Origin: a virus
Reading direction: 5' to 3' (one strand)
Virus record (IMG/VR): IMGVR_UViG_3300023443_000373
Coordinates: 1-38,112 of that record
DNA: 38,112 nucleotides
The translations under genes and the position numbers were made by a program. Shown in pieces: positions 1,170 to 31,009 of this stretch. The notes under the pieces were generated by a model that worked only from the letters and a program-made list of their open reading frames with translations, was not told the DNA's origin and made no database searches. How positions within the stretch are numbered: the stretch's first letter is position 1; each line of letters opens with the position of its first letter.

Positions 1170-2222
1170 ATGAAATGGTTCAAACATGACACATGCGCCA
1201 ACATGGACCCACGATTACAAAAAATATTATCCCAGTACGGTCTAGAAGGCTACGGGCTGTATTGGTATTGCGTCGAGTTAATCAACTCCCAAGTCTCTGA
1301 GAAAGATGTCAGTTTCACGCTTCAGCACGATGCTGAGGGCATTGCTAGAAACACAAACAATACCCCTCACAAAGTCGAGTCAATGATGCGCGAATTTCTC
1401 AATTTAGAACTCTTTGAATTAGATGAACACGGCAACATTTGCTGTCCAGAATATGCAATGAAGTTAGACACTTCAATGACTTCAAATCGTCAAATGAGAC
1501 TGATCATTCAAGAGATAAAAAGTAGATTTGTTGAAGAAAAGGAGATCGAAAAATCGATCGAAAAGGGATCGAAAGACGAAATCGATCGATCGAAAGATGA
1601 AATCGATCGACAAAATCGATCTCCCGAGCGATCGAAAAATTCTGAAAAAGACGAAATCGATCGCGAAATCGATCGCAAAAAAGACTTTTTCGATACAGAA
1701 ACCCAAATCGATCCCGAAATCGATCGCAAAAATGACTTTTTCGATCGCGAAATCGATCGCGAAATCGATCAGGAAATCGAAATTGATACGGAAAAACCAC
1801 CAATTCGATACGAAAGTCATGATTCTTGTATCGAAAAAGACGATTCTGTACAAAAAACGAACAATCGATCTAAAAGTCATGATAAAATCATGCAAGAAGG
1901 AGAAGGAGAGAGAGATAAAGACCTTAAACGATCTTGTACGATTTTGGATGAAATCGTCCCAAATCATGATTTTGAAACTTTTTGGAATCTCTATCAGAGA
2001 AAAGTCAATAAACCCGCATGTCAGAAAAAATGGGCAAAACTTAAACCTGGAGAGATTTACCTTATTTTTAAAACTGTCAAAGATTACGTTAAATCAACAC
2101 CTGTAAAAAAATATCGTATGAATCCTTTGACCTACTTAAACAATTACGGATGGAATAACGAAATTATCGATAATGAATCAACAGGTGGGAAACACGATTT
2201 TAGTTGGATGGATGACGAGTGA
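1170..2222 (+). CDS. Phage replication initiator with internal iteron-like array
   Basis: The 350-residue protein has three parts. Residues 1-115 (MKWFKHDTCANMDPRLQ, then GLEGYGLYWYCVELI) match the N-terminal DNA-binding domain found in phage replication organisers (DUF4373 / Lin1244-type). Residues about 120-255 are a highly charged, low-complexity linker dominated by EIDR units. Residues about 268-340 (FETFWNLYQRK, KKWAKL, MNPLTYLNNYGW) match the C-terminal segment common in phage initiators, likely the contact for a helicase loader. The linker DNA contains the array described at 1544-1772, so the gene may contain its own origin, as lambda O does. The next gene overlaps its stop, which fits an initiator-loader pair. 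Long open frames on both strands here are by-products of the palindromic repeats. Role inferred; domain match by eye. Confidence 0.8.
   Translation: MKWFKHDTCANMDPRLQKILSQYGLEGYGLYWYCVELINSQVSEKDVSFTLQHDAEGIARNTNNTPHKVESMMREFLNLELFELDEHGNICCPEYAMKLDTSMTSNRQMRLIIQEIKSRFVEEKEIEKSIEKGSKDEIDRSKDEIDRQNRSPERSKNSEKDEIDREIDRKKDFFDTETQIDPEIDRKNDFFDREIDREIDQEIEIDTEKPPIRYESHDSCIEKDDSVQKTNNRSKSHDKIMQEGEGERDKDLKRSCTILDEIVPNHDFETFWNLYQRKVNKPACQKKWAKLKPGEIYLIFKTVKDYVKSTPVKKYRMNPLTYLNNYGWNNEIIDNESTGGKHDFSWMDDE
1544..1772. repeat. Iteron-like ATCGAT/GATC array, candidate replication origin
   Basis: Within about 229 bases I count 15 GATC sites where about one is expected by chance. The core unit is a 12-mer close to GAAATCGATCGC, at 1578, 1599, 1653, 1665, 1716, 1749 and 1761, several copies abutting exactly at 12-base steps. 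A larger direct repeat includes the GACTTTTTCGAT blocks near 1683 and 1733. The word occurs in all three frames of the host gene (EIDR, KSIE, QNRS), so the DNA rather than the peptide seems conserved. Lambda-type phages place origin iterons in the linker part of the initiator gene. The GATC density also recalls Dam-regulated origins. Function is inferred. Confidence 0.7.
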
Positions 2223-2656
2223 TGGAATATAAGCAATTTAAAGAAATTTTGGTTAAGCAGATAAAAGTTTTAGGCCGAAATTTCAGCGGTAGTGATAAAG
2301 AAAAAAAAGAGTCCCTAGAAGACCTTGTAGGCTATTATTTTTTGAGCCTTAGCTATCTATCAGAAACTGAATTAGATAGCGCCTTCCTACGTTGTAGGGA
2401 GTCTTACAGCTATTTCCCAAGTATCCACCAAGTTTTGAAGTGCGCTCCAGTAAAAAGACAAAAAGAGACCTTTGTCAGACCGAAATTTGTTCCGGTTAGG
2501 CCTGAAATGCAAAACAAAGTCAATTCTGTTCTAAATGGACCGAAAAAACCAATGACAAAACAACAAATGATCAAGAATTTTAAATTTCTTCATAAACGAA
2601 ACCCGTTCATTGATTGGCGTCCAATCATGGAACGCGAACTCGAAAAACTCAGTTAA
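2222..2656 (+). CDS. Probable replicative helicase loader / initiator partner
   Basis: This 144-residue basic protein starts at ATG 2222, overlapping the TGA of the initiator gene by one base; a GTG codon just before it could also serve. The middle has a pattern seen in phage P-like or DnaT-like partners: a helical segment (YYFLSLSYLSETELDSAF), then YFPSIHQVLKCAP, followed by a basic Pro-rich stretch and a C-terminal helix (NPFIDWRPIMERELEKL). Translational coupling to the initiator and its position support a role in bringing the host helicase to the origin. Sequence similarity is weak, so the call rests mainly on context. Confidence 0.5.
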   Translation: MEYKQFKEILVKQIKVLGRNFSGSDKEKKESLEDLVGYYFLSLSYLSETELDSAFLRCRESYSYFPSIHQVLKCAPVKRQKETFVRPKFVPVRPEMQNKVNSVLNGPKKPMTKQQMIKNFKFLHKRNPFIDWRPIMERELEKLS

Positions 2657-24328: not shown

Positions 24329-24781
24329 ATGGGTTTCGGTGGACAACAACAAATAGGCAACCGGTCTGGTAATTTTGGCGGTGGTGGTAATTTTGGCGGT
24401 GGTGGTAATTTTGGCGGTGGTGGTAATTTTGGCGGTGGTGGTACGAATCTCGGTGATTTGTTTAGGGGAAATATTGGTGCGCCTCAACCAATTGGAACCA
24501 CACAACAGCCAACACAACTTTTCGCCTTGATTCAACAGTTGCTCGGTAACCAGGGGGGCGGCGGTGGACCTCAATCGCAACCACCCCAACTTGGCGGCCT
24601 TGGTGGACTTGGTGGGCCAAGTATCGGACCTCAAAGACCTGGGGGATTAAGTTCTAATGCTGGTCCTGGTGCGGATTTTGGTGGACCTCAATCACTACCC
24701 CCGCAGTTTGGTGGTGGAACAAATCTAACTCAATTAAATAATCCATTTCAGGGGTTAATTAATCAGCGCTTTGCAAGGTAG
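24329..24781 (+). CDS. Glycine-rich protein with perfect 18-bp tandem repeats
   Basis: This 150-residue protein is dominated by Gly, Gln, Pro and Asn. Residues 15-38 are four identical units of NFGGGG encoded by identical 18-base repeats. A helix-like block (QPTQLFALIQQLLG, about residues 60-73) breaks the low-complexity sequence. It has a TAGGAGAG ribosome-binding motif and lies between two ejection-type proteins, so it is likely an ejected or structural spacer protein. Its low complexity prevents any family call. Confidence 0.7.
   Translation: MGFGGQQQIGNRSGNFGGGGNFGGGGNFGGGGNFGGGGTNLGDLFRGNIGAPQPIGTTQQPTQLFALIQQLLGNQGGGGGPQSQPPQLGGLGGLGGPSIGPQRPGGLSSNAGPGADFGGPQSLPPQFGGGTNLTQLNNPFQGLINQRFAR
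24371..24442 (+). repeat. Four perfect 18-bp tandem repeats
   Basis: The unit AATTTTGGCGGTGGTGGT occurs four times in a row without a mismatch at 24371, 24389, 24407 and 24425. Identity even at third codon positions implies recent expansion or ongoing slippage. Each unit adds NFGGGG to the protein without changing the frame. Confidence 0.97.
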
Positions 24782-29932: not shown

Positions 29933-31009
29933 TTAATTTGGCTTCAATGGGATCACTTTTGCCGTCTCGATCACTTCATAAGTACGGCGTATTTTTCTAC
30001 AAATACCCTCCCCCACTAACTCCAATAAAATCCTCGATAACTCTGGATGACGGCGCTTTGTTTCAGCCATTAAGACAGTAATTTTTAAAGTATTACCATA
30101 GAAACCAGACGCAATTTTTTGTTTAATTACACTCAATTCTTCACTGATATTGCAAGTTGCAATTGCTAGTGCAACTTCGGTATGTTTCACAGGTTTTGCA
30201 ACTTGCAACTTTTGTGCAACTTCTGCAACTTGCAGTGGTGCAACTTTTTCTTGCAAACTTGCAACCCGCGTATTCTCTGGCTTGCAAGGTGCAATAACTT
30301 TTTCTTGCAATGTTGCATTGTCAAGTTGCAAGGTCGGTGCAATAACTGCAATTTTATGTTTCACGGTTATTGCAAGGATGCAAATTACGCCGCAAATATC
30401 AACCAACATTGCACCGAAAAGAAATAGCAATAACTGTGCAAGTTGCGCAGTAATACCCAACATTTCGCCAACAGTTTTGAAGATAGAATCTTCTCTAGAT
30501 TCTTGCACACCCTTAAGGGTGTTTAACTTTTCAAGTGCTGCCGCTTTCTCTACTCGAAGCGCCTTCAAACGAGTACTGATTGAATAACCCCTAGTTTTAT
30601 ATTTACCTTTCAAATCGTTTGCTTGGGATTCAATAAGTGTGGCTGATTCACTATCTAGTTTGTGTATGATATTTTGCTGTTCATGATACACAAATGATGA
30701 AGTACTAATTATTTCTAAATTACTCGTTGCGCCTGATTCAAGAAAAACCACCGTAATGAACACCGAAAAAGCGAGCAAAACAACGGCTATCATATAAAGA
30801 AAAAACGACCATATTCTAGATACTGTCTTTTTTGCCAGCGCAAAGAATGCGAATTTACACACCTCAAGACCGGTGGCAAATACACCCGCCATGACCATTT
30901 TTTCTATATTAGGCTGTCTTGTCACCCAAAAGGCCACTGAAGCCACCAAAGAGAAAGAGCAAAGCAGAACGGCCCCAATCACAAGGCCGCTTTGTAATAT
31001 CTTAGTCAT
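29933..31009 (-). CDS. Membrane-anchored protein with coiled coil and winged-helix-like tail
   Basis: The 358-residue protein has likely membrane helices at about 6-29, 37-58, 66-90 and 184-215, with a long charged coiled coil between the third and fourth (100-180). A low-complexity linker (about 217-287, VA, LQ and AT units) leads to a C-terminal block (288-350) that reads like a winged helix: SVIKQKIASGFYGN, ITVLMAETKRRHPELSRILLELVGEGICRKI. An even number of spans puts both ends in the cytoplasm, so it could hold DNA at the membrane. The linker is encoded by the TGCAA-rich array. GAGGTGGG precedes the ATG. It is the last gene of the RecT operon. I recognise no named family. Confidence 0.7.
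   Translation of the reverse strand: MTKILQSGLVIGAVLLCSFSLVASVAFWVTRQPNIEKMVMAGVFATGLEVCKFAFFALAKKTVSRIWSFFLYMIAVVLLAFSVFITVVFLESGATSNLEIISTSSFVYHEQQNIIHKLDSESATLIESQANDLKGKYKTRGYSISTRLKALRVEKAAALEKLNTLKGVQESREDSIFKTVGEMLGITAQLAQLLLFLFGAMLVDICGVICILAITVKHKIAVIAPTLQLDNATLQEKVIAPCKPENTRVASLQEKVAPLQVAEVAQKLQVAKPVKHTEVALAIATCNISEELSVIKQKIASGFYGNTLKITVLMAETKRRHPELSRILLELVGEGICRKIRRTYEVIETAKVIPLKPN
30151..30441. repeat. TTGCAA/TGCAA array within the membrane-protein gene
   Basis: I count 19 copies of TGCAA on the plus strand in this stretch, where well under one is expected, plus many on the other strand as part of the palindrome TTGCAA. Several are spaced 7 or 8 bases apart (30151/30158, 30197/30204, 30252/30260, 30283/30290, 30371/30379), giving units such as TTGCAAGTTGCAA. 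The word falls in all three frames of the host gene (LQ, VA/IA, TCN), so peptide repetition does not explain it. It is the second DNA-word array in the window and differs from the ATCGAT array. A protein-binding array is likely; its ligand is unknown. Confidence 0.75.

Follow-up and report, generated by a model that had tools for sequence, protein, structure and literature searches.

Intragenic iteron origins have been proven in a few model phages. The lambda ori lies in gene O, and between lambda and its Stx-phage variants the number of iterons varies, adding residues to the protein (PMC7466680); SPP1 oriL, in gene 38, and 80alpha ORF20 combine direct repeats with an AT-rich element, also inside the initiator gene (PMC6316719, PMC5499656). 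At Vibrio cholerae oriII, RctB recognizes 11- and 12-mers with a GATC in each, and methylation is required for binding (PMC2865523); in PLE, a group of Vibrio satellite elements, the RepA origin has semi-palindromic iterons to which a phage-related initiator binds (PMC8263062). Our literature searches found no description of origins of the Lin1244_N family, which does not show that none exists. We suggest that the linker of a Lin1244_N initiator gene in a 38,112-base virus record (hereafter the window) is the phage's replication origin, an intragenic iteron origin of the lambda/SPP1 type with a new, Dam-methylatable iteron, and we would place the probability of this reading at roughly 0.78. 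Comparison with related genes further suggests that they use the same layout with other, matching words.

The gene (1170..2222, + strand) encodes 350 amino acids. Its identification as a replication initiator in the original prediction is upheld by an N-terminal Lin1244_N match (Pfam PF14297, E=3.6e-8, 34.5 bits against a cut-off of 25), by PHROG 20981 (E=2e-38) and by a match of the C-terminal part to PHROG 270, 'replication initiation protein'. The N-terminal, winged-helix-like DNA-binding domain (approximately residues 1-119, 1170..1526, +) is modelled confidently by AlphaFold, with pLDDT mostly 81-97 from residue 11 onward, and in a fold search its nearest viral models are Lin1244-type proteins, followed by the N-terminal domain of a phage replisome organiser. 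The C-terminal O-like domain (FETFWNLYQRK...NYGWNNEI, 1950..2165, +) matches PHROG 270 and 35156 over residues 261-332 and is modelled with fair confidence as a folded block, residues 246-325; relatives aligned to the protein match replication-initiation, O-like, primosomal and replisome-organiser profiles. The N-terminus is Lin1244_N and shows no homology to the DNA-binding domain of lambda O, only the C-terminal domain resembling initiation or O-like profiles. A PDB sequence search gave no match, and we claim no solved relative because the PDB fold search returned weak matches alone, none at E<=0.001. The linker had been described as disordered; AlphaFold instead renders residues 125-200 as helices, mostly with medium to high confidence. 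AlphaFold frequently over-predicts helix in charged repeats. Downstream lies a 145-aa gene (2219..2656, +) of unassigned family, without a match in Pfam, PHROG or phage records; in several relatives the initiator is followed by a gene for an IstB/DnaC-like ATPase or DnaB-like helicase. GC skew tracks gene direction in the window and carries no information on the origin.

Within the linker, positions 1544-1770 (+) hold an ATCGATC array that we interpret as a putative lineage-specific iteron bank. It is the densest 229-nt GATC stretch of the window, with 15 GATC and 11 ATCGAT, and all 15 GATC lie inside TCGATC or its complement GATCGA. The word GAAATCGATC occurs seven times in the window, always in the array (1578, 1599, 1653, 1665, 1716, 1749, 1761), and abuts at 12 bp in the pairs 1653/1665 and 1749/1761; the counts, the recurring 12-mers and their abutment are thus as first described. 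Of the 19 TCGATC in the window, 13 fall between 1500 and 1900. By reading frame the array GATC divide into nine in frame 0, four in frame 1 and two in frame 2. Every linker ATCGAT is followed by C (12/12), a base that stays constant across R, P, Q and S codon contexts, against 0/15 for ATCGAT outside the gene. Counting the whole linker, some 20 TCGA-centred words are interleaved with TCATGA words, the ATCGATC bank meeting these family words at about 13 bp, and the series ends in TCATGCAAGA and a purine tract. Part of the array originated by in-frame duplication, positions 1654-1701 and 1705-1752 being 90% identical; the 12-bp spacing common in the array is one that in-frame duplication would yield too. 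The array is also spanned by two overlapping ORFs, one of 161 aa on the minus strand and one of 192 aa in another frame, which were set aside as by-products of the stop-free repeat.

To what extent codon choice could produce these words was assessed under two null models. When the protein was held fixed and codons were drawn from the phage's own usage (5000 draws), 5.9 GATC and 1.9 ATCGAT were expected, and no draw exceeded 12 GATC. The harder null, in which only the array's own codons were permuted synonymously, still gave P=0.011 for GATC, P=0.0024 for ATCGAT and P=0.0002 for TCGATC. The GATC density of the array is beyond what codon choice alone explains. Elsewhere in the window no 4-base palindrome is avoided more than GATC (87 against 157 expected); it stands at 0.55 of expectation outside 1541-1775, and at 0.66 in the relatives' loci L033-L112. 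The distribution over frames and the excess under synonymous permutation support the earlier proposal that the DNA word, and not the peptide, would be under selection here. These results also bear on the notion of a coding microsatellite, in which a 12-bp EIDR unit was amplified by slippage and duplication and the charged helix was tolerated or selected. Such a history would account for the in-frame 12- and 51-bp duplications and for the charged helices that AlphaFold predicts at this place, yet it seems improbable to us in view of words in three frames, their excess under permutation, the C that invariably follows ATCGAT whatever the codon, and the avoidance of GATC in the rest of the window.

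A broader basis for the origin reading is provided by 178 other distinct Lin1244_N genes collected from IMG/VR, species genomes and phage records; a single-sequence scan of genome contigs yielded no relatives, and an alignment scan yielded 18. None of the 178 contains the ATCGATC array, and GATC-bearing iterons were not found in relatives. The check proposed earlier was whether homologous initiator genes keep the DNA word when the linker changes. Aligned relatives keep neither EIDR nor ATCGAT, and this check could not be passed literally because no relative found has the array, whose own lineage is represented by one genome. What the relatives offer is, in our judgement, stronger than literal ATCGAT conservation, namely lineage-specific words in the same layout. 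Most linkers contain two or more copies of a short word of their own, about 11 bp apart and hence in different frames, and then a purine tract; in many the last word is TCATGCAAGA, followed by a tract such as AGATAAGATTAGATTAGATAAG. Vibrio phage XM1 and douglas 12A4 are cultured relatives that have this layout. The array's position between the DNA-binding and C-terminal domains is borne out, and at this place relatives have origin-like iterons together with a purine tract. When genes were ranked by repeated 9-mers in different reading frames, the window came first and many relatives were flagged too.

The family word is TCATGA, TCCCGA or TTCCGAA and goes with the kind of DNA-binding domain encoded. 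In 70 other genes of the SMTSN type (those with an SMTSN element after the DNA-binding domain) TCATGA is present 145 times, against 46 expected and a maximum of 60 under synonymous permutation, and it is absent from 54 DEYT-type genes, which instead contain 87 TCCCGA/TCGGGA (10 expected, maximum 19). Words of the purine tract reach about six times their expected number in both SMTSN- and DEYT-type genes (273 against 46 and 178 against 29), while an automatic purine-tract criterion recognized the tract in only 128 of 179 genes. Of about 130 spacings between TCATG words, 93 are 11 bp, 28 are 21 and 5 are 10; between TCCCGA-like words, 69 are 11 bp and 20 are 10 (89 of about 117). Since 11 is not a multiple of three, the same DNA word is read SHD once and VMT next. 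On the DNA-binding-domain tree the word changes 10 times among rows with a word, and all states require 19 changes against 35.8 when shuffled, on a tree that is poorly resolved and with clustering inflated by near-copies. A 25-nt TCATGA-pair pattern searched against 2.9 million viral contigs gave 31 matches, all 31 in Lin1244-type initiators (L313 being the last to be assigned) and, where the start could be placed, 350-482 nt from it. Relatives without a recognisable word include L118-L120.

Other searches returned loci of a different nature. AAATCGATCNNNAAATCGATC matched seven loci in viral contigs, none an initiator, and was discarded. Tandem AAATCGATCTC units at approximately 2185-2505 of IMGVR_UViG_3300037767_000026, where there is no long ORF, resemble a satellite repeat and not an initiator. 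We also note a Lin1244_N initiator (L219, ORF from 771) with a T5orf172/GIY-YIG-type domain (Pfam T5orf172, E=9e-10) inserted in its linker before TTCGGGAA words and a purine tract, an arrangement that recalls the origin-directed nuclease Odn of phage ICP1 (PMC8263062).

The family signature is present in the window as well. At 1805..1834 (+) a TCATGA is flanked on both sides at 13 bp by TCGA (centres 1806.5, 1819.5 and 1832.5), so that the family word is interleaved with the window's own. At 1864..1897 (+) ATCGATC is followed after 13 bp by TCATGA and after a further 11 bp by TCATGCAAGA; the stretch 1877-1897, TCATGATAAAATCATGCAAGA, is the exact family core, and TCATGANNNNNTCATGCAAGA, exact at 1877, would be expected 0.05 times even allowing two mismatches and recurs in dozens of relatives' loci. 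The 28-nt purine tract AAGAAGGAGAAGGAGAGAGAGATAAAGA (1894..1921, +), a putative DNA unwinding element, occupies the place of the relatives' AGATAAGATTAGA tract and is without their AGATAAGA words. The stretch 1877-1921 reproduces the family layout of out-of-frame words about 11 bp apart and then a purine tract. Windows of 60 nt over 1830-1919 have an AT content of 67-70% and rank with the less stable ones of the linker, downstream parts of the gene being equally weak. Because the TCGA words lie 13 bp from TCATGA at 1817 (both sides) and at 1877, both words belong to one array. The functional block probably reaches about 1921, and because the conserved core is downstream, the ATCGATC array is probably a supplementary or substitute bank of iterons and not the entire origin. 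The original prediction of an origin at the array is thus supported as to place, relatives having origin-like iterons there, and falls short as to extent, the conserved core at 1877-1921 lying outside it.

The core might even be the whole origin (1816-1921), with an array that the initiator does not bind and that serves Dam/SeqA-type timing, as a decoy or for host-protein binding. This we consider unlikely. The core is exact, relatives lack GATC-rich iterons, and the window domain retains SMTSN, the element that accompanies TCATGA in relatives, all as such an arrangement would have it; against it, TCGA words flank TCATGA at 13 bp on both sides like iteron slots, long arrays of their own word are present in other members (TTCCGAA in L212, GTCCGGAC in L126), and near-invariant positions of the DNA-binding domain have changed. 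That domain is 51-61% identical to those of TCATGA-type relatives, sits on a long branch of the domain tree and is altered at K15, K94, K97 and R98, near-invariant in its type; these departures fit, and do not prove, a shift of binding preference to ATCGATC.

The iteron had been thought unlike known ones, a view that the GATC-containing 11- and 12-mers of RctB contradict (PMC2865523): they are a close parallel and the nearest precedent for the ATCGATC iteron, with a GATC in each site of about 12 bp in both. The systems differ in that the window initiator is unrelated to RctB as far as tested, in that oriII is intergenic and chromosomal, and in that methylation dependence is proven there and hypothetical here. 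Because each ATCGATC word contains GATC, Dam methylation may influence binding, as for RctB, and with the GATC content shared by the two sets of sites Dam-dependent binding becomes a possible, concrete hypothesis. Window ORFs above 100 codons showed no DPPY-type methylase motif. A fuller scenario we regard as quite unlikely in its entirety: the initiator would have switched its specificity from TCATGA to ATCGATC, phage replication would be gated by Dam methylation at about 15 sites, and the family would be one in which iteron word and DNA-binding domain evolve together, lineage by lineage, within one gene.

Under the origin reading, the N-terminal domain would bind the linker words cooperatively, like lambda O or SPP1 gp38, the strands would open at the purine tract, and the C-terminal domain, with a partner, would recruit the helicase or its loader; the window lineage would have replaced or supplemented the ancestral TCATGA by ATCGATC during the divergence of its DNA-binding domain, with duplication lengthening the array. 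It is also conceivable, and in our view very improbable, that the linker words are operators through which the initiator represses its own gene: repeated sites in a coding region could equally be regulatory, but these sites are 370-750 nt past the start codon, the purine tract comes after them, and the layout is that of the proven intragenic origins of lambda, SPP1 and 80alpha. Like the lambda ori, the window has repeated short sites inside the initiator gene. In lambda these iterons lie in the middle of the gene, are bound by the initiator and adjoin an AT-rich opening region (PMC7466680); in the window the corresponding binding is predicted. With the SPP1 and 80alpha replisome organisers it shares repeats in the initiator gene and a distant fold match, that of the N-terminal domain; the words differ, and the protein has no shown sequence-level membership in that family. 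Lambda iterons are 18-19 bp long. The window instead has words every 11-13 bp, about 20 of them against lambda's 4-6 iterons, a putative opening tract that is purine-rich, and an initiator domain unrelated by Pfam. The PLE RepA origin differs in having three iterons, each about 30 bp long, that lie in non-coding DNA. We suggest that the plan known from model phages extends to a large, mostly unannotated family of phage initiators, whose lineage-specific iteron words, readable from sequence, would make the origin predictable in many uncultured phages and supply naturally matched binding domains and words with which changes of initiator specificity could be tested. Within this family the window would stand at an extreme, its array being long and containing GATC in a genome that otherwise avoids this site.

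Two other repeats were observed in the window. A second word array, at 30150-30440 in a coding linker of ORF 29933-31009 (- strand), contains 10 TTGCAA in three frames and 22 TGCA, where phage codon usage predicts 1.25 and 4.0 and own-codon permutation gives P=0.0024 and <0.0002, respectively. The ORF encodes a 358-aa membrane protein of unassigned family, the N-terminal part of which has one weak relative, on a Microbulbifer plasmid, and the array might be a binding site of its own protein, for instance in partition or anchoring. A perfect 18-bp tandem repeat of 4.3 copies (TGGTAATTTTGGCGGTGG) at 24367-24455, in ORF 24329-24781, encodes a Gly/Asn-rich stretch.
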